A stretch of DNA of 37,672 nucleotides from Opitutaceae bacterium. GTDB lineage: Bacteria > Verrucomicrobiota > Verrucomicrobiia > Opitutales > Opitutaceae. A program made the position numbers and the translations under genes. Below the pieces are notes generated by a model. That model saw only the letters and a list, made by a program, of their open reading frames with translations. It was not told the origin of the DNA and searched no databases. How positions within the stretch are numbered: the first letter of the stretch is position 1; each line of letters starts with the position of its first letter. Below are positions 26,784 through 36,319 of the stretch, piece by piece. The stretch lies in the NCBI GenBank assembly GCA_003164715.1, contig PLTZ01000049.1, positions 1 to 37,672 of the forward strand. The letters are read 5' to 3'.

Positions 26784-27767
26784 TCAGGCCTTGGCCGGGG
26801 GCAGGAGGTCGTCGATCGAGTCGCTCTCGACGCTCAGGTCGGCGAAGAGCCACGACGAGAGGTAGCGCTCCGCGGACGAGGGGATGATCACGACGATCTG
26901 CTTGCCCTTGTTCTCGGGCCGCTTCGCAACCTGGATCGCGGCCCAGACCGCCGCTCCCGAGGAGATCCCGATCGGGATGCCGTCGAGCTTTGCCACCTGC
27001 TTGCTCAGCGGCGCGGCGTCGTCCTCCTTAACAGTGATCACCTCGTCGTAGACCTTGGTGTTGAGGACCGCGGGCACGAAGCCGGCCCCGAGGCCCTGGA
27101 GCTTGTGCGGCCCGGGCTGCCCGCCGGAGAGGATCGGGGAGCCGGCCGGCTCGAGGGCGATCAGCCTGAAGGACGGCTTGCGGGGCTTGATCACCTCGCC
27201 GATGCCCGTGATGGTGCCGCCGGTGCCGATCCCGGAGATGACGATGTCGACCTTCCCGTCGGTGTCCCGCCAGATCTCCTCGGCCGTCGTCCGGCGGTGC
27301 ACCGCGGGGTTGGACGGGTTCGAGAACTGCTGGAGAATGACGCTGTTCGGGATCTTCGAGGCGAGCTCCTCCGCCTTGGCGATGGCGCCCTTCATCCCTT
27401 TCGCGCCCTCGGTGAGCACCAGGCGGGCGCCCAACACCTTGAGGATCTTCTTGCGCTCGTTCGTCATGGTCTCGGGCATCGTCAGGACGAGCTTGAGGCC
27501 CTTGGCCGCCGCCACGAACGCGAGCGCGATGCCCGTGTTGCCGCTCGTCGGCTCGATGAGGATCGTGTCCTTGTTGATGCGGCCGCTCTTCAGGGCGTCG
27601 TCGATCATCGCAAACCCGATCCTGTCCTTGACGCTCGAGAGCGGGTTGAAGAACTCAAGCTTGAGGAGTATCTCCGCCTGCGCCCCGTGGGCGGTCGCGG
27701 TCCGGTTGAGGCGGACGAGGGGGGTGTTCCCGATCGTCTCCGTGATGTCATTGTATATCTTGGCCAT
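26784..27767 (-). CDS. cysK: Cysteine synthase A (O-acetylserine sulfhydrylase)
   Basis: A PLP enzyme that makes cysteine from O-acetylserine and sulfide. The 327-aa product has the cofactor lysine in S-S-V-K-D-R (K47). It also has the substrate loop E-P-T-S-G-N-T-G and the phosphate-binding G-T-G-G-T-I-T-G. The C-terminal [10 protein letters not shown] segment is present too. It is the last gene of the minus-strand sulfate uptake run, 56 bp after cysA, which fits its use of sulfide from imported sulfate. No sulfate reduction genes (cysD, N, H, I) are in the window. It converges with the GT-C-like gene. Confidence 0.96.
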
Positions 27768-27823: not shown

Positions 27824-28879
27824 CTAAATGGCGTAGTCCTCGTCAAACGAGTGGGACTGCCGCAGCCGCAGCCGCACAAGGTCGTTCACGCCGAGGTCCA
27901 GGTCGGCGAGCTCGGACCTCGAGATCTCGACCTCGACCTGCTCGCGCGTCTGCACCTGCTCGAGGAGAAGCCTCGCGTGGGGGCCCGCCGCGTGGATGTG
28001 GCGCACGATGGCGGAGAGGCCCGAGCCGCCCGCGTCGTGCGGCGACACCTCGATGTCGTGCGGGCGGACGTAGATCTGCCCCTCGGTGTTCGGGTCCTCC
28101 GCCGGCCCGCCCCGGCGGCGGGCCCCGGCGAGCGCGGGCGCGCGCAGCACGTTCACGTTGCCGAGGAACTGGTAGACGAACGGCGAGGCCGGCCTGTCGT
28201 AGACCTGCTGCGGCGTGCCGACCTGCTCCACGTGGGCCTTGTTCATGATCACCACCTCGTCGGCGATCTCGAGCGCCTCCTCCTGGTCGTGGGTCACGAA
28301 GATCGTCGTCAGCTGGATCTCGTCGTGGAAGCGCCTCAGCCAGCGCCGCAGGTCCTTGCGCACGCGCGCGTCCAGGGCCCCGAAGGGCTCGTCGAGGAGC
28401 AGCACCTTGGGCTCGACGGCAAGCGCGCGGGCCAGCGCCACGCGCTGGCGCTCGCCCCCCGACAGCTGCGAGGGGAAGCGCCCGGCGAGCCCGTCCAGCT
28501 GGACGAGCTCGAGCAGCCGGTGCGCGCGCTCGGCGATGGCCTCGCGCGACGGCCGGTCGCGGCGCCGGCGAACCCGCAGCCCGAACGCCACGTTCTCGAA
28601 GACCGACATGTGGCGGAAGAGGGCGTAGTGCTGGAAGACGAAGCCGACCCTGCGCTTGCCCGCCGGCAGGTCCGTCACGTCGTCGCCGTGGAAGAGGACG
28701 CGCCCGCTTCCCGGGTCGGCGAACTCGAGGCCCGCGATGATCCTTAGCAGCGTCGTCTTGCCGGAGCCGGACGGGCCGAGCACCGCCACCAGCTTCCCTT
28801 GCGGGACGTTCAGGTCGACGCCGTCGAGCGCCGTGTAGGCCCCGAACTTCTTGTAGAGGGAGTGGGCCTCGATGCTCAT
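27824..28879 (-). CDS. cysA: Sulfate/thiosulfate ABC transporter ATPase CysA
   Basis: The cytoplasmic ATPase that powers sulfate import. The 351-aa product has the Walker A motif G-P-S-G-S-G-K-T-T (35-43), Q-loop [10 protein letters not shown], signature L-S-G-G-E-R-Q-R-V and Walker [22 protein letters not shown] follows. A C-terminal TOBE-like regulatory domain contains the family's [10 protein letters not shown]. The ATG at 28879 overlaps the cysW stop (ATGA). Confidence 0.96.
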
Positions 28880-29748
28880 GCCGATCCCGTCTGGCGCCAC
28901 TCGACGGCCGACTTGACGACGAGCGTCGCCAGCGCGAGGAGCGCAAGGAGCGAGGCGACCGCGAACGCCCCCGCGATGTTGTACTCGTTGTAGAGGATCT
29001 CGACGTGCAGCGGCATCGTGTTGGTCTCGCCGCGAATGTGGCCGCTGACAACCGAGACCGCCCCGAATTCCCCCATCGCGCGCGCGTTGCACAGGATGAC
29101 CCCGTAGAAGAGGCCCCAGCGGATGTTCGGGAGCGTGACGCGCCAGAAGGTCTGCCATCCGCTGGCCCCGAGGGTCACGGCGGAGTACTCCTCGTCGGTG
29201 CCCTGGGCCTGCATGAGCGGGATGAGCTCGCGCGCGACGAAGGGGAACGTGACGAAGGTGGTGGCGAGCACGATGCCCGGGACGGCGAAGATGACCCGGA
29301 TGTTGTGGGCGATGAGCCACGGGCCGAACCAGCCCTGGGCTCCAAAGATGAGGACGTAGATGAGCCCCGCGATGACCGGGGACACCGCGAAGGGCAGGTC
29401 GATCAGCGTCGTCAGGAGGCTCTTGCCCGTGAACTTGAACTTCGAGATGGCCCACGCCGCCGCGACGCCGAACACGACGTTGGCGGGGACGACGATCGCC
29501 ACGGTCAGGAGCGTCAGCCGTATGGCGGCCAGGGCGTCGGGCTCGCGCACCGCCGCAAGGAAGTAGGCCCCGCCCTTCGCGAAAGCCTGGGCGAACACCA
29601 CCACGATCGGCAGCACCAGGAAGAAGGCGAGGAACGCGAGCGCCACGGCCGTGAGGAGCCAGCGGGCCCAGGCGGGGTCCCTGTTCGCGCGCGGCGTCGG
29701 CGCGTGGCCCGGGCGGGCCGGGAGGGCGGTTGCGATTGCGGAGGCCAA
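28876..29748 (-). CDS. cysW: Sulfate ABC transporter permease CysW
   Basis: One of the two membrane channel subunits of the sulfate importer. The 290-aa product has six transmembrane helices and the permease-ATPase contact motif [25 protein letters not shown] follows, which is typical of CysW. The only in-frame start before the first helix is TTG at 29748. The stop overlaps the cysA start. The 74-bp gap upstream contains a perfect 12-bp palindrome, GGGCCCGGGCCC at 29796-29807, of unknown meaning. Confidence 0.94.
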
Positions 29749-29822: not shown

Positions 29823-30713
29823 TCATATCGCGTGGTAGCGGCGGCTCCACTTCTGGAGCAGGTTGATCAGCAGCAATAGGACAAACGACGACACGAGCAT
29901 CACGACCGCGATCGCCGTTGCGCCGCGGTAGTCGTACTGCTCGAGCTTCGTGATGATCAGCAGCGGGACGATCTCCGTCCTCATCGGCATGTTGCCCGAG
30001 ATGAAGACGACCGAGCCGTACTCCCCAAGCGCCCGCGCGAACGCGAGCGCGAAGCCCGTGAGGAGGGACGGCATGAGCTGCGGGATCAGGATGCGCACGA
30101 TCGTCTGCAGGCGGTTCGCCCCCAGGGTCGAGGACGCCTCCTCGATGTCGGGCTCGAGCTCCTGGAGCACGGGCTGCACCGTCCTGACGACGAAGGGCAG
30201 CCCGATGAAGGTCAGGGCCACGAAGACGCCGGTCCAGGTGAACGCCACCCGGATGCCGAGCGGCGCAAGCCAGCGGCCCACCCAGCCGTTCGACGAGTAG
30301 AGCGACGTGAGCGCGATGCCCGCGACGGCCGTCGGCAGGGCGAACGGGAGGTCGACCAGGGCGTCGACGAGCTTCCTGCCGGGGAAGGGATAGCGCACGA
30401 GCACCCACGCCACCACGAGCCCGAAGACCATGTTCACGAACCCCGCCGCAAGCGACGCGCCGAAGCTCAGCTTGTAGGCCGCGACGACCCTCGGCGACGC
30501 GACGACGGCCGCGAACTCGTGAAGGCCCATCCCGGCCGTCTTCAGGAACGCGGCCGATAACGGCACGAGGACGATCAGCCCCAGATAGGCCAGCGTGAAC
30601 CCGAGCGAGAGCCCGAAGCCGGGCAGGATGGAGCGGGAGCTGCGCGCGCTCGACATCGTGCGGAACGAGGGGGGATAGGTGCCCCGGCGGGGCGGGAGGG
30701 CTGTCGGGCTCAT
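29823..30713 (-). CDS. cysT: Sulfate ABC transporter permease CysT (CysU)
   Basis: The partner permease to CysW. The 296-aa product has six transmembrane helices. [12 protein letters not shown] is followed by the cytoplasmic coupling region [25 protein letters not shown] comes after that, the CysT version of the family motif. A 30-residue hydrophilic N-terminal extension precedes the first helix; a later ATG (M20) is an alternative start. It lies 26 bp after the unknown gene at 30740 and 74 bp before cysW. Confidence 0.94.
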
Positions 30714-30739: not shown

Positions 30740-31540
30740 TTAGAGATGCTGGCCGTAGGCCTGGAAGGCGCGGTAGCGCAGCAGGAACCGCTCGAGGAGC
30801 GTCACCGCGGCATGCTGGTAGGCGTCATCCGACCAGGCCCCCGGAATGCGCAGCGTGAGCTCGAACGGCGCCAGCGGCAGGTCGCGCGCGACGGACAGCG
30901 GCCCTTCGCGGGCCGGCGCGCCGTCGGAGCGGGCCTCGAAACGCACCGGGAACGAGCGCGTCTCCTGCGAGGTGATGAGCTCCAGGTCCGGCGACGCCGC
31001 GTCCGAGTACACCCCGCGGACGCGCAGGACGATCAGATCGTCTCCGGCGGGCCCCGTCTCGACCCTGACAAACCCGTGGTAGCCGCGCTGACGCGCGTCC
31101 TTCTCAAGCAGCCCGATTTCCGGTGGTGCACCGCGGCTCCACGGCGCCGCCGCCAGGCCCCGGTCGCCCTCGCCGCGGACAAGGCCCAGGACGTCCACCA
31201 GGGGGAAGAAGGTCAGGTTCAGCGCGTGGCCGGCCTCGCTGCTGGTCGCCAGGCGCGTCGCGAGGGCCACGAGCGCCCTCGAGGCACGCAGATCCCTGCA
31301 GTCGAACCCCGCGAGGAACGCGATGCGCCACGACTCGTCGCATGCGTGGGGCCCGAAGAAGACGAACCGGGGGAGATAGGCCGGCTGGCCGCCGGCCGGC
31401 AGGGGTCCCAGGGGCGACGCGAAGACATACCTTGAATTCTGCGAAAGCGCGTAGAGCTCGCTCAGGTCAGCGCGAAGCATGGCGGCGGGAACACCGCGGT
31501 CGGCCGCGGACGGGGCGGCAACTGGGTAGGGGGTGCTCAT
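30740..31540 (-). CDS. Uncharacterised protein in sulfate operon, possible degenerate M14-like fold
   Basis: A 266-aa soluble protein with no signal peptide or membrane helix. Its layout resembles the M14/AstE zinc-carboxypeptidase core. A strand W-R-I-A-F-L-A-G-F ends at residue 79, where the family has A-G-x-H-G-D-E; here the residues are D80-C-R-D83. L-T-F-F-P-L-V-D-V-L-G stands where the family has a P-x-x-N-P-x-G segment. P-P-E-I-G-L-L-E and G-F-V-R-V-E then replace the usual E-P-E-x-x-L and x-x-L-H. If the alignment is right, all zinc ligands are lost, making it a pseudo-enzyme. It sits between sbp and cysT, so a role in sulfate uptake or its regulation is suggested only by position. 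ATG 31540 was chosen; ATG 31561 is possible. Confidence 0.65.
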   Translation of the reverse strand: MSTPYPVAAPSAADRGVPAAMLRADLSELYALSQNSRYVFASPLGPLPAGGQPAYLPRFVFFGPHACDESWRIAFLAGFDCRDLRASRALVALATRLATSSEAGHALNLTFFPLVDVLGLVRGEGDRGLAAAPWSRGAPPEIGLLEKDARQRGYHGFVRVETGPAGDDLIVLRVRGVYSDAASPDLELITSQETRSFPVRFEARSDGAPAREGPLSVARDLPLAPFELTLRIPGAWSDDAYQHAAVTLLERFLLRYRAFQAYGQHL

Positions 31541-31587: not shown

Positions 31588-32610
31588 TTACTTCTGGTAG
31601 ATCTGGTCGAACACGCCGCCATCGGCGAAGTGGGTCTTCTGCGCCGCCGTCCATCCCCCGAATACGGCGTCTATCGTGAAGAGCTCCAGCTTGGGGAACA
31701 CGGAGGCGTACTTCGCTGCCGCCGCAGGGCTGCGCGGACGGTAGAAGTTGCGGCCGGCGATCTCCTGTCCCTCGTCGGAATAGAGGTAGCCGAGATAGGC
31801 CTTGGCGACCTCGGTCGTGCCCTTGCGGGCCGCCACCTTCTCGACCACGGCGACGGGGGGCTCGGCCAGGATGCTGGACGAGGGGACGACCGTCTCGAAC
31901 TTCCCGGGGCCGAATTCCTTGCTGGCCAGGAACGCCTCGTTCTCCCAAGCGAGCAGGACGTCCCCGATCTCCTTCTGGGCGAATGTGATCGTCGATCCGC
32001 GGGCGCCCGAGTCGAGCACCGGCACATTCTTGTAGAGGGCCGTGATGAATTCGCGGGCCTTCTCCTTGCTCCCGTACTTGCGCTCGGCGTAGCCCCAGGC
32101 CGCCAGGTAGGCCCAGCGCGCCCCGCCGGAGGTCTTGGGGTTCGCCGTGATGACCGAGACATCCGGGCGCACGACATCATCCCAGTCCCGGATGTGCTTC
32201 GGGTTACCGCGTCGCACGAGCAGCACGATCGTGCTGGTGTAGGGCGTCGAGTTGTCGGGGAACTTCGATTGCCAGTCCGCCGGGACAAGGTCTCCGTGCG
32301 TGTGCAGCTGGTTGATGTCGGCGGCGAGCGCGAGCGTCACGACGTCGGCCTCGAGGCCGTCGATCACGGAGCGCGCCTGCGCGCCGGATCCCCCGTGGGA
32401 CTGCTTCACCACGACGTTGTCGCCCGTCTTGGCCTTCCAATAGGCGGCGAACGCGGCGTTGTACTCGGTGTAAAGCTCCCGGGTCGGGTCATAGGAGACG
32501 TTAAGGAGTTCGAGGGTCTTCGCGCGAGCGGCCGATGCGGCGAGAAGCGCCGCGAGGGCGAGCGTGGCCGCGAGACCGGGGGCCCGGCGGGTTGATGGGA
32601 ATAGGTTCAT
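31588..32610 (-). CDS. sbp: Sulfate/thiosulfate-binding periplasmic protein
   Basis: Captures sulfate in the periplasm for the CysTWA transporter. The 340-aa product has a signal peptide (residues 1-30, ending A-S-A-A-R-A). The mature sequence starts [16 protein letters not shown], the family N-terminus with sulfate-contact residues. [13 protein letters not shown] follows, then [14 protein letters not shown] and the C-terminal F[10 protein letters not shown]. The ATG at 32610 precedes the signal peptide. A 113-bp gap separates it from yezD. Confidence 0.95.
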
Positions 32611-32723
32611 GGACGGGAGTGTGCCTGTTTCTGGGGAGGGGCTCCGTCGACGGGTTGGCCACGCGATCCGCGGTCTGTTTTCGTTGGCTCCGGGGTGTCC
32701 GGTCGGGCTGGGAAAGTCATGGG
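32611..32723 (-). other. sbp/yezD gap
   Basis: These 113 bp are the largest gap inside the sulfur run apart from the rrf2 promoter. A separate sbp promoter may lie here, but I see no convincing -35/-10 pair, hairpin or coding sequence. Confidence 0.2.
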
Positions 32724-32933
32724 TCAGGGGGATCCCGGGTGCAGGGGGGCCCGCTCCGGGGCCCCGGACCCGAGCCGCGTCTTCTCGGTGCGTTCGATCT
32801 GGGTCACCCGGCCGTCGTGGACGACGAGCTGCACAACTCCGTACCGGAGGTTCCGGACCTGGGCGCGCACGAGGGCGAGCCACTCGGGTTCGCCCGCGGG
32901 ATGCGCTGTCTCTGCGCTGGGTTCCGTGGACAT
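32724..32933 (-). CDS. yezD: YezD-family (DUF2292) small protein
   Basis: A 69-aa protein. The core matches the short YezD/DUF2292 pattern: [20 protein letters not shown], then a basic T-E-K-T-R-L tail. No function is known for the family. Members are often seen near sulfate uptake genes, as here, between rrf2 and sbp. The ATG at 32933 was chosen since it gives the normal family size; it is 19 bp after the rrf2 stop. No membrane segment or signal peptide is present. A possible role as a small effector of sulfur assimilation is inference. Confidence 0.8.
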
Positions 32934-32952
32934 GGGGGGCGGGTCTTGCGGG

Positions 32953-33564
32953 CTAGATCGAGTACTCGCCGAGGATATGGTGCAGGACCCCGTCGGTGGG
33001 CGAGTTCCGGCCCCGCCTGGGGGTGCGGCCCCTGCGGGAAAGCTGCGCACGCGCGATCCGCGCGGGAAGGCGCGACTGCACTTCCCCCGCGCCCCCCTGC
33101 GGGGAGAACGGCAGCGAGATGCTGTCGCGGCGCATCTTGCGAAGCGTGATCTCCACCACGTCGGCGAGGGAGTAGCGGTCGAGGATGTCGGCGATCGCGT
33201 TGCGGACGTCCAGCATGAGCATCCGCAGCCCGCAGTGCGCCTCGTCCGGGCAGGTGCAGGGCTCGTACGCCGTCTGGGAGACGCACCGGATCGGGGCCAG
33301 CGGGCCGTCGATCAGCCGCACGACCTCGCCGATGAGGATCTTGTTTGCGGGCCTGGCCAGCCGGTAGCCCCCGAACTTTCCCCGCTCGCTCTCGACGATG
33401 CCGGCCTCCTTCAGCGCCTGCAGGATCTGCTCCAGAAACTTGACCGGCAGCTGCTCGCTCTCCGCCAGCTCCGAGACCTGCACGAGCTTGCGCTTCATCT
33501 CCGCGGCGATCCCGAGGTTGATGAGGGAACGGAGCGCGTACTCGCCTTTCTTGGAAAGCTTCAT
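32953..33564 (-). CDS. Rrf2-family regulator, likely sulfur-responsive
   Basis: A 203-aa winged-helix transcription factor. The N-terminus M-K-L-S-K-K-G-E-Y-A-L-R-S-L is the Rrf2 signature. A helix-turn-helix and wing follow (about 28-72, with G-G-Y-R-L-A-R-P). C94, C103, C105 and C111 form a cluster at the place where IscR and NsrR bind an Fe-S cluster. The spacing is C-x8-C-x-C-x5-C. CymR, the sulfur regulator of Firmicutes, has no such cysteines. A 55-residue Arg-rich C-terminal tail extends beyond the usual 140-150 aa. Leading the sulfur operon, it probably autoregulates and controls it. There is no Shine-Dalgarno, so the mRNA may be leaderless or nearly so. Confidence 0.88.
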   Translation of the reverse strand: MKLSKKGEYALRSLINLGIAAEMKRKLVQVSELAESEQLPVKFLEQILQALKEAGIVESERGKFGGYRLARPANKILIGEVVRLIDGPLAPIRCVSQTAYEPCTCPDEAHCGLRMLMLDVRNAIADILDRYSLADVVEITLRKMRRDSISLPFSPQGGAGEVQSRLPARIARAQLSRRGRTPRRGRNSPTDGVLHHILGEYSI

Positions 33565-33685: not shown

Positions 33686-36319
33686 CTAGAACTTGTAAAC
33701 TTCTGCGAGCGCGGTGCCTGTCGTGGCGCCGGCGCCCGAAACCTCGGCGGTGTACGATCCGGGAGGAAGCGTCACCACCATCGCACAATCCGCGGAGCCG
33801 GCTGTGAGCGAAAACGCACCCTCGGCGCTCATGTCGGCGGCCGTGGCCCGGCGGACGCTCGCGCCCGCGGGCAAGGTGCCCGTCACGGGGGTATTGCTCC
33901 AGCCGGTGCTTGTCGCCACGACGCTGCCGTTGCTCAGGTTCTGCAACGAAAGGACGGGCGCGGCGAGGGTCCCGGTGAGGCCGAAGCCGGCGAGAGCCGG
34001 GCCAATTCCCCGGATGAGGAGCGTCGCGGGCTGCGCCCCGCCGATGACAAACCCGGAGATCGCCACCGCCGAGCCGGTCCCGACGAAGCACCGCGACGAG
34101 ATGTTCGCGAAAACCTCAGTATCCGTCGTGTCCATCTCGTAGACCTCGGTCAGGGCCACGCCGCTCGTGCCGCCGACGCCGGTGGTTTCCACCGTGTAGG
34201 CACCGGGCGGCAGCGTGAGCACGATCGCCGAGTCGCCCGATCCGCTGCCGAAGCCGAACGCCCCGACCGCCGCCATGTCCGCCGCGGTTGCCTGGCGGAA
34301 GTTGTTGGCGACCGTGGAGGCGCCCGCCACGGGTGGGTTTCCCCAGCCCGTGTCGCTGGCGATCAGCACCGAGCTTGAATCGTACACCGAAAGAACCGTG
34401 CCGGAGAGGGCCCCGGCCACACCGTAGCCGGTCAGGGCGGGACCCACGCCGCGGACAAGGATGTTCTTCGTGGTTCCGGCCGTCCCCTTGATAACGAAGC
34501 CCGCGATCGTGATGTTGGCGCCCGTCTCCACCTGGGAGCGGACGGAGATGTTCACGAGCCGGTGGGTCGGAGGCGGGTTCGCCATCGCGGCGAGCAGGTT
34601 GCCCAAGTTCGGGGTGCCCAGTCCCGTGCAGAGGTTGTAGCCGGGGCCGGCGGTGTAGGCCCCGTTGGTCCCGCTCGTGACGTCGTTGAACGCGCCGGTG
34701 CCCGCGAGCGGGTACAGGGCCGGATTGAGTAGGCCGATGGGTCCCTGCCCCCCCGCCGCCCGGGCCTGGTTGATCGTGGCCGTGATGGCGGCCCAGATCG
34801 GACAGGAGAGGCTGGTGCCGTTCACCGTCTTCAGCGCGCCGCCCATGTAGATGAGGGCGCCCACGTCGGTCCCTGTGAACGGCAGGAATTTCGGGCCCAG
34901 GTTCACACTCGTCAGGTTCGAATCCGAGACCGCCGCCACGTCGGGGACGCACCGCATCGTCTGCGAGGCGAGCACGGAGCCGCCCGTCTGCCACGACGGC
35001 TTCGCGAAGTAGCCGCTCACGCCCCCGGAGCTCGCGCTTGGCGTGGAGGTCGCCAGCTGGTTCCAGACGACCTCGCCGGTGAAGTTCCAGTTCCCGGTGA
35101 AGCCGGCGGTCGTGCCGCCGACGCCGGTGACGCTGGGATCGCTTGCGGGATACGAGACTGCGAGCGGCTGCGCGGCCGAGTAATTGCCCGGCCCGGTTCC
35201 GCCGTTCGGGTTCGAGCCCGCATCGCCGCTCGCCGCCAGGACCGAGACGCCGGCGGCCGCAAAGGACGCCATTGTCTGCGAGAACGAGCGCAGGAACGAC
35301 GGCGGGTCGCTGCTCTCGATCGTCCCGAAGCTCACCGAGACGACGGTCATGGCCGGGTAGCTGGGCAGCTCGTTCTGGATCTGGGTGAAGCAGTCGAAGA
35401 CGTTCTGCGAGAGGTAGAGCCGGATGGCCGCGCCCGGGGCCATCGCCCCGGCCCACTCGGTGTCGAGATCGGCTTCCGCCTCCAGGTTGCTTGCCGGGCT
35501 TCCCGACGGGCCGCCGTTCACGTTGATCGTCGTCACATTGCTCGTGCTCTGCGACGAGCCGATCGACGTCCAGAAGGACGCCAGGTCGGCGTTGCCGGCC
35601 GCCGCCTCCCCGACCACGGCGATCGTCTGCCCGGCCCCCGTCGCCCACGCGGGGATATTGTAGGCGGACGCCACGTTGTCCGGGGTGACGAAGACGTAGC
35701 CGTTGATGCCGTCGTCCGGCAGGGGCTGGGCCGCCACGCTGATGTGCCGCAGGCGCAACTGGGGCTGGAGCGAGTTCACGCTGAGCACCACGCCAGCCAG
35801 CTCGGCGGGCACCGAGGGCTCCGAGATCGCGGACGTGTATTCGCCGTCCGCGGCGACGACCCTTGCGAAGGCGATCCCGAAGGCCCGGGCGACCTGGGCG
35901 ACGCTTCCCCGGATGAATACGGTGGTGTGGCAGCGGTCCTGCAGAGTCTGCAGAAAACCCTGCGCGGCGAGCCATGCCTCGACTCGTTCATAATCGGCGC
36001 GAAGGGGCAGGTACCTCGCCTCCATCTCCGCGGCCGGCACGCGTCCCCCCGAGGCGACGCGCGCCTGGAGTCCGTCGAAGTCGCGCATCCGCAGCGTCAC
36101 GGAGAACAGGAACGGCGCGTTGAGCTCGGCCGGGGTCAACGCCGCGCGCACGATCCGCGCGCCCCCGAGCGTCCGGCCCCCCGCGTCCGGAAGCCGCACG
36201 GTCCCCTCGACGATGCGCGCATCCAGGTGCAAGGCGGCGGAACTCGCCGCCTTGCACGGAAGGATGATCAGCCCGGCCAGGGCGAGGCCTGCGAGCGTCA
36301 GTCTGGGGTCGTGGGGCAC
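33686..36319 (-). CDS. Secreted S53 (sedolisin/kumamolisin) peptidase with twin C-terminal repeats
   Basis: An 877-aa exported serine-carboxyl protease. Residues 1-25 form a signal peptide. About 45-190 is the activation propeptide. About 205-580 is the S53 catalytic domain with E282 and D286 (E-A-D-L-D), the oxyanion D366 (S-G-D-A-G) and the nucleophile S503 (N-G-T-S-L-S). At the calcium site, the usual G-x-G-x-D reads G-P-G-Y-N (N562), while D546 is kept. Residues 586-729 and 736-877 are two copies of a domain common in verrucomicrobial exported proteins. The family works at acidic pH on extracellular protein. The start is GTG at 36319, 15 bp after the metallo-hydrolase gene, so the two may share a transcript. 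Confidence 0.92.
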   Translation of the reverse strand: MPHDPRLTLAGLALAGLIILPCKAASSAALHLDARIVEGTVRLPDAGGRTLGGARIVRAALTPAELNAPFLFSVTLRMRDFDGLQARVASGGRVPAAEMEARYLPLRADYERVEAWLAAQGFLQTLQDRCHTTVFIRGSVAQVARAFGIAFARVVAADGEYTSAISEPSVPAELAGVVLSVNSLQPQLRLRHISVAAQPLPDDGINGYVFVTPDNVASAYNIPAWATGAGQTIAVVGEAAAGNADLASFWTSIGSSQSTSNVTTINVNGGPSGSPASNLEAEADLDTEWAGAMAPGAAIRLYLSQNVFDCFTQIQNELPSYPAMTVVSVSFGTIESSDPPSFLRSFSQTMASFAAAGVSVLAASGDAGSNPNGGTGPGNYSAAQPLAVSYPASDPSVTGVGGTTAGFTGNWNFTGEVVWNQLATSTPSASSGGVSGYFAKPSWQTGGSVLASQTMRCVPDVAAVSDSNLTSVNLGPKFLPFTGTDVGALIYMGGALKTVNGTSLSCPIWAAITATINQARAAGGQGPIGLLNPALYPLAGTGAFNDVTSGTNGAYTAGPGYNLCTGLGTPNLGNLLAAMANPPPTHRLVNISVRSQVETGANITIAGFVIKGTAGTTKNILVRGVGPALTGYGVAGALSGTVLSVYDSSSVLIASDTGWGNPPVAGASTVANNFRQATAADMAAVGAFGFGSGSGDSAIVLTLPPGAYTVETTGVGGTSGVALTEVYEMDTTDTEVFANISSRCFVGTGSAVAISGFVIGGAQPATLLIRGIGPALAGFGLTGTLAAPVLSLQNLSNGSVVATSTGWSNTPVTGTLPAGASVRRATAADMSAEGAFSLTAGSADCAMVVTLPPGSYTAEVSGAGATTGTALAEVYKF
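33689..34114 (-). repeat. C-terminal repeat domain, copy 2 of S53 peptidase
   Basis: This encodes residues 736-877. It matches copy 1 segment by segment: A-N-I-S-S-R-C, A-I-S-G-F-V-I-G-G, L-L-I-R-G-I-G-P-A-L, L-P-P-G-S-Y-T-A-E and A-L-A-E-V-Y at the C-terminus. The two copies are clearly related but diverged, so the duplication is not recent. Confidence 0.85.
34133..34564 (-). repeat. C-terminal repeat domain, copy 1 of S53 peptidase
   Basis: This encodes residues 586-729. Key shared segments with copy 2 are V-N-I-S-V-R-S, T-I-A-G-F-V-I-K-G, I-L-V-R-G-V-G-P-A-L and L-P-P-G-A-Y-T-V-E, ending V-A-L-T-E-V-Y-E. The domain is probably a beta-sandwich used for surface or carbohydrate contact; that function is inference. 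Confidence 0.85.

Follow-up and report, generated by a model that had tools for sequence, protein, structure and literature searches.

A predicted M14-fold pseudoenzyme clade encoded in the sulfate uptake operon of Opitutaceae and their relatives

Within the sulfate uptake operon of the stretch of DNA analysed here (the window, 37,672 nucleotides at full length), we found a gene whose 266-aa product, on the evidence of its ORF, alignments, profiles and a structure model, is an M14-fold pseudoenzyme. As judged by sequence comparison it belongs to a pseudoenzyme clade which is derived from M14 and in which the catalytic positions were lost clade-wide. Hereafter, PSI denotes the window-type protein and ACT a second M14 paralogue in which HxxE...H is retained. 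Since related bacteria keep the dead copy at the same place, PSI probably has a non-catalytic role in sulfur uptake or cysteine synthesis.

The initial annotation had placed a 266-aa ORF between sbp and cysT, and this ORF is indeed present, opening with ATG at 30740..31540 on the minus strand, with neighbours that are identified by NCBIfam; the genes from cysK to the Rrf2-family regulator described next also lie on the minus strand. Directly upstream, across a gap of 47 bp, lies sbp, encoding the sulfate-binding protein (31588..32610; NF008022, E 1.3e-152), and directly downstream, after 26 bp, the sulfate permease gene cysT (29823..30713; TIGR02139, E 8.9e-124). The operon further comprises the second permease gene cysW (28876..29748; TIGR02140, E 8.9e-124), the sulfate transporter ATPase gene cysA (27824..28879; PRK10851, E 6.4e-114; its start at MSIEAH was taken from the ORF, the stretch scanned with PRK10851 being 27827-28843) and cysK for cysteine synthase A (26784..27767; TIGR01139, E 5.9e-135). 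On the other side, an Rrf2-family, CymR-like regulator is encoded at 32953..33564 (TIGR00738, E 4.2e-36), which reaches 85 bits with the CymR model NF047409 and as such remains below its cut-off of 195. A sedolisin-like protein with a Pro-kumamolisin activation domain (Pfam) is encoded at 33689-36319, flanked by the Rrf2 gene and a gene for an MBL-fold protein, and similar genes occupy the equivalent place in three relatives (G002, G006 and G008). Of 14 relatives tested that bear PSI or ACT, 13 have a phosphate-selective-porin-like gene upstream of sbp, which at the loci inspected is situated in the Rrf2-sbp interval (PF07396 in L027); the window, where this interval is 32611-32952, has none. 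For the window PSI protein, Pfam and NCBIfam at E up to 1 returned zero families, single-sequence phmmer against PDB zero matches, and Rfam and plasmid searches nothing for the protein or its locus. Judged by eye, it has no obvious signal peptide.

A first search gave matches in 15 of 57 genomes, the window's own genome being among the 57, and several of these carry an adjacent second M14-like gene, ACT, the product of which is 24-30% identical to the window PSI. ACT retains HGDE, NPTG, DLNREFW and LHADD, and it matches PF24827 AstE_AspA_cat in Pfam (E 1.1e-7) and the Shewanella N-acetylornithine deacetylase model NF052223 (E 4.5e-11, although its 42.5 bits fall far below the cut-off of 400), which by their names are models of N-acyl-amino-acid hydrolases. 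The two paralogues are alike in whole-length homology, size and operon place, whereas HxxE, R, NR, H and E are kept in ACT and none of this set in PSI. A PSI-only profile aligned with the ACT profile nearly end to end (hhalign probability 99.8, E 1.5e-27). Searched against PDB at E up to 10, the same profile found four sequences, three of them Shewanella M14 proteins (2qvp, E 0.0015; 3ieh, 0.016; 3b2y, 0.12); the fourth, LolA (0.25), was discarded as an unrelated protein. Some PSI relatives also match NF052223 weakly, with a best E of 0.00029 for the copy of G028.

An AlphaFold2 model of PSI (pLDDT 86.9, pTM 0.88) was obtained from an alignment of 24 rows (13 PSI, 9 ACT and 2 from G056) and is not independent of the M14 homology, because this input included active paralogues; prediction from the single PSI sequence was poor (pLDDT 42.7) and was left unused. 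Queried with the model, Foldseek returned 2qvp as its top match (E 4e-9) and Shewanella M14 proteins as its best matches, and VIA gave a Z of 21.7 to 4b6z with an rmsd of 3.0 across 237 residues. The Shewanella structures 2qvp, 3b2y and 3ieh represent the fold and the nearest PDB sequences of PSI, at approximately 13-18% identity in structural alignments. The M14 fold, which the initial annotation had assigned from the family pattern, was in this way upheld by the profile match to ACT and by the Foldseek and VIA matches to M14 structures: according to profiles and the AlphaFold2 model PSI has the M14 fold, and its place in M14 by fold follows from the structure model together with independent profile matches.

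With regard to catalysis, all zinc-ligand positions are changed in the window PSI, as the initial annotation had read from the letters alone. Alignment with the intact paralogue reproduced its three replacements exactly, D80-C-R-D83 standing in place of HGDE, V-D116-V-L-G in place of NPTG and V-E161 in place of L-H, which in M14 numbering corresponds to H69 becoming D80, E72 becoming D83 and H196 becoming E161. Additional losses came to light: the Arg127 segment is missing, N144-R145 is replaced by A130-A131 and E270 by R231, the residues of the window protein at the sites examined being D80, D83, D116, A130, A131, E161, R173 and R231. The comparison covered the window and 75 fetched loci with 121 ORFs in all, labelled PSI (60) or ACT (61) by the better profile score, one of the latter being a distant M14 on contig C19 of the window genome (G000). 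The H-E-H triad occurs in none of the 60 PSI ORFs versus 60 of the 61 ACT-labelled ones; in the ACT alignment it is found in 60 of 62 rows, the other two being pieces of the broken frame of G179. The column equivalent to Arg127 holds R in 60 of 62 ACT rows and is gapped in 54 of 60 PSI rows, E is present at the E270 position in 3 of 60 PSI rows, and the R231 position is itself variable in PSI (R in 22 of 47). Compared with active M14 members, PSI lacks the zinc ligands, Arg127 and N144-R145, E270, and a match to a Pfam or NCBIfam model.

The initial annotation had also asked whether any homologue retains H-x-x-E. None of the PSI proteins does, although transitional forms retain single ligands. 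The PSI copies of G028, G135 and G136 are transitional, with H69 replaced by N or S and E72 by D, the NP kept and H at H196, and those of G056 and G303 retain H69 with D at E72. Eukaryotic M14 pseudopeptidases (AEBP1, CPXM1, CPXM2, CPD domain III and Ecm14), which have lost catalytic residues and for which non-catalytic roles are proposed, are covered in the available part of a review (PMC11266112); those named there are from vertebrates and yeast, and in its table they are mostly extracellular and have fewer altered sites, with H69 and E72 kept in most. PSI shares with these proteins, as described in that part, an M14 fold with lost catalytic residues, and differs from them in being bacterial, in having all sites altered and in showing no obvious signal peptide. 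In open-licence PubMed Central text, no literature on an M14 protein or pseudoenzyme in a sulfate operon was found.

By its sequences, PSI forms a single clade. In a quick maximum-likelihood tree (77 of 141 rows, no bootstrap, several long branches, root not inferred), 39 PSI rows and 3 rows of PSIx, the short relatives that come from the order's other families, were separated from ACT and the class-level rows by a branch with an SH-aLRT of 99. In these other families the order sbp-PSIx-ACT-cysT was seen in four genomes (G288, G302, G379 and G056), and in G303 PSIx is present and ACT absent. Outside the order, a phylum sample of 387 genomes contained 13 from the class with a single ACT, which lies among sbp/cysT/cysW/cysA in 7 of them, only beside an Rrf2-type gene in 4 and at neither in 2, and all 13 retain the eight catalytic positions examined. 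Because class-level genomes carry a lone intact ACT, mostly at sulfate or Rrf2 genes, ACT looks, from these sequence comparisons, like the older, ancestral member and PSI like the derived duplicate; the ancestor of PSI was probably an N-acyl-amino-acid hydrolase, as suggested by the nearest named models. One of the class-level copies (G700, L233:7311-8753) is flanked by an Rrf2-type gene on one side and by a gene for a TauE/SafE sulfite exporter on the other. Of the 252 genomes of the family, at least 72 were matched by the PSI profile (E up to 1e-5), cross-matches to ACT included, and at least 183 by the ACT profile at the same threshold, these matches being mostly distant M14s. All 34 loci in the named collection, in which records close to the window's own genome may be left out, are titled Opitutaceae, Opitutae, Opitutia, Opitutus, Rariglobus or Verrucomicrobia(ota).

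The link with sulfate genes extends to the relatives, in which the commonest order is sbp-PSI-ACT-cysT. In a neighbour tally with nine query genes, from which G056, G214 and the C19 gene of G000 were left out, the first of the searched genes going upstream from PSI is sbp in 47 of 58 loci, so that the adjacency to sulfate genes reported for the window by the initial annotation holds for the homologues as well. On the downstream side, the searched gene that follows PSI first in these 58 loci is most often ACT (33 loci), otherwise a second sbp (10) or cysT (8), and ACT is in turn followed by cysT in 52 of 59. Twenty related operons contain neither gene; all of them look intact or nearly so, sbp adjoins cysT in 19, and sbp was not found in the twentieth, that of G149. 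They were chosen with a CysT survey that served this end only, its count of at least 93 of 252 genomes being an undercount which missed CysT in G029 and G033. Since sbp still adjoins cysT in 19 of these 20 operons, the PSI/ACT pair is accessory, and since all twenty do without both genes, its function is dispensable; PSI, not being encoded in every such operon, is no core subunit of the CysTWA-Sbp transporter. Away from the transporter, PSI adjoins cysK in G021, ACT adjoins cysK in G131 and the pair lies near cysK in G135; G021 and G135 also have a gene for a Cys/Met PLP enzyme nearby. The initial annotation had proposed a catalytically dead hydrolase that would serve sulfate import as a regulator or adaptor; the dead M14-like hydrolase in the operon stands, and its supposed role, because PSI or ACT adjoins cysK off the transporter, is here moved toward sulfur assimilation and cysteine synthesis generally. 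Neither cysK nor a Cys/Met PLP enzyme lies beside the copies found away from the transporter in G009 and G018 or the ACT of G004, and the PSI copies of G018 and G009 are isolated.

Several loci are rearranged or extended in other ways. Besides its operon PSI and a further PSI copy on another contig, G168 carries two more PSI-like genes, which follow cysK (L149:4530-13275). The operon end of G011 (L025:7775-12729) reads partial cysA, short cysK piece, Rrf2, partial cysA, cysK. In five genomes (G017, G229, G237, G171 and G152; loci L035, L113, L138, L146 and L153), the main sulfate operon is followed immediately by another sbp-cysT-cysW cluster, more distant in sequence at 44-50% identity.

The close association of the two genes could mean that PSI and ACT form a heteromer in which PSI, as the non-catalytic subunit, stabilises or regulates the active M14 enzyme, an explanation that we consider rather unlikely. 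It agrees with 33 of 59 ACT loci having PSI as the closest upstream gene among those searched, with the pair staying together off the transporter in G009 and G135, and with the presence of both genes in 42 of 70 genomes, a tally of arrangement and not of frequency because genomes were picked for matching. A precedent is found in M16, where, according to the available part of PMC11266112, MPP (mitochondrial processing peptidase) and bacterial two-gene homologues combine one active and one inactive subunit; PSI and ACT resemble such pairs in being duplicates in one operon with one partner inactive, but have another fold, and PSI often occurs without an active partner. In the same 70 genomes, 12 carry PSI only and 16 ACT only, and in the 10 PSI loci mentioned above it is a second sbp, not ACT, that follows. 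When all first-look candidates were scored, an ACT orthologue was found in none of 13 PSI-only genomes, the window genome included, whereas the control G004 gave its ACT orthologue at E 2.5e-106. ACT matches in the window genome are confined to PSI itself and a distant M14 at C19:65460; the latter, the only other M14 there and common to many relatives, was rejected as an ACT encoded elsewhere. The assemblies are partly fragmentary, but those of G018 and G095 are 99-100% complete in 20-30 contigs. Plotted on the PSI tree, ACT presence changed at least 3 times by starred branches and 6 times by parsimony, in a count which scores G179 as without ACT since its ACT frame is broken, and which omits G102, G193 and G065, whose contigs end nearby and in whose assemblies no ACT orthologue was found. 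PSI may at first have served in a heteromer with ACT, but this cannot be its sole role, because PSI persists without ACT. As to the state of ACT itself, catalytic residues were lost from the ACT-type copies of G302 (L223:8071-9030) and G379 (L224:1821-2954), where both M14 genes may be dead.

The residues at the former metal site raise the question of a rebuilt catalyst, in which D80, D83 and E161 would hold another metal and confer a new hydrolytic or lyase activity. Among the 58 PSI rows with both ends aligned, the triad is exactly D-D-E in 31 and acidic at all three positions in 35, and new conserved arginines lie close in sequence, R159 (45 of 48 core rows) and R200 (46 of 47) being near-invariant and different from ACT. 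However, G, R, S, V and A also occur at the triad positions, PSI has lost N144, the Arg positions for oxyanion and carboxylate, and E270 as the general base, and a salt bridge replacing zinc accounts equally for the acids and the arginines, which makes a rebuilt catalyst improbable. The invariant residues of the 48 core PSI rows at which ACT has other residues are F40, S42, V199, P214 and W236, and in the conservation ranking of 250 core columns D116 comes 32nd, D83 63rd, D80 94th and E161 103rd; as the former metal positions rank lower, the strongest constraint lies elsewhere and the idea of an acidic site is only a lead.

In close pairs, PSI is under purifying selection. Its dN/dS in six such pairs was 0.049, 0.076, 0.063, 0.108, 0.161 and 0.120, close to the flanking-gene values where these were computable; 14 pairs were tried, of which 7 gave no PSI value, and the 0.285 of G000-G004 is unreliable, its stop-to-stop frames including upstream sequence. 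The matched PSI copies are open frames without stops. PSI evolves faster than its neighbours, the identity between G000 and G004 being 70% for PSI, 79% for Sbp, 83% for CysT, 84% for CysW, 87% for CysA and 91% for CysK. That PSI is a passive hitch-hiker, a degenerating duplicate heading for loss, would suit its loss in many relatives with operons that remain intact or nearly so (20 of 20) and the damage to ACT itself in G302, G379 and G179, but is very improbable given the open frames, a dN/dS of 0.05 to 0.16 in the six close pairs, the many PSI-specific invariant columns and the retention of PSI after repeated ACT loss.

What kind of protein PSI is, an M14-derived pseudoenzyme, is well supported, whereas its mechanism is putative. 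The explanation that we prefer, and to which we give about even chances on the sequence evidence, is that PSI is a neofunctionalised pseudoenzyme of sulfur assimilation, kept by selection and acting without catalysis in the cytosol. PSI would be a duplicate of a cytosolic M14 (AstE/AspA-like) amidohydrolase from the sulfate-assimilation gene set of the class, its zinc site and carboxylate anchors having presumably been lost once, in the ancestor of the sampled Opitutales-like families, after which it would have been retained by selection, first beside the active paralogue and later alone in several lineages including that of the window genome. It may bind a small acyl-amino-acid metabolite of cysteine synthesis, with O-acetylserine or N-acetylserine as putative ligands suggested by the pathway, or alternatively a protein partner, CysA or CysK, and sulfate uptake or cysteine synthesis would thereby be tuned to supply. 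The substrate of ACT would be an N-acyl amino acid from this pathway, which it would deacylate. The chemistry behind the N-acetylserine idea is O-to-N acetyl migration. The N-acetylcysteine deacetylases of Bacillus subtilis belong to M20, not M14, in the available part of PMC12757645, which for that reason lends no support to an M14 enzyme in that role. A more specific version, which we regard as doubtful, would make the former zinc pocket a sensor site and have D80, D83 and E161 together with R159 and R200 bind the cysteine-pathway metabolite (such as O-acetylserine or N-acetylserine), thereby gating CysTWA or an Rrf2/CysK regulatory complex, with ACT, in genomes that have it, removing the same ligand by deacylation.

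Taken as a bacterial M14 pseudoenzyme clade with an active sister next door in many relatives, PSI offers transitional forms (G028, G135 and G136), several losses of ACT and close operons without both genes, so that how a pseudoenzyme arises and what it is for can be addressed directly by genetics. If the doubtful sensor version were true, PSI and ACT would be a signal-reading and signal-erasing pair that arose from one gene duplication. More broadly, the finding points to an active-type M14 hydrolase that, throughout a class of Verrucomicrobiota-type bacteria, is tied to sulfate assimilation.
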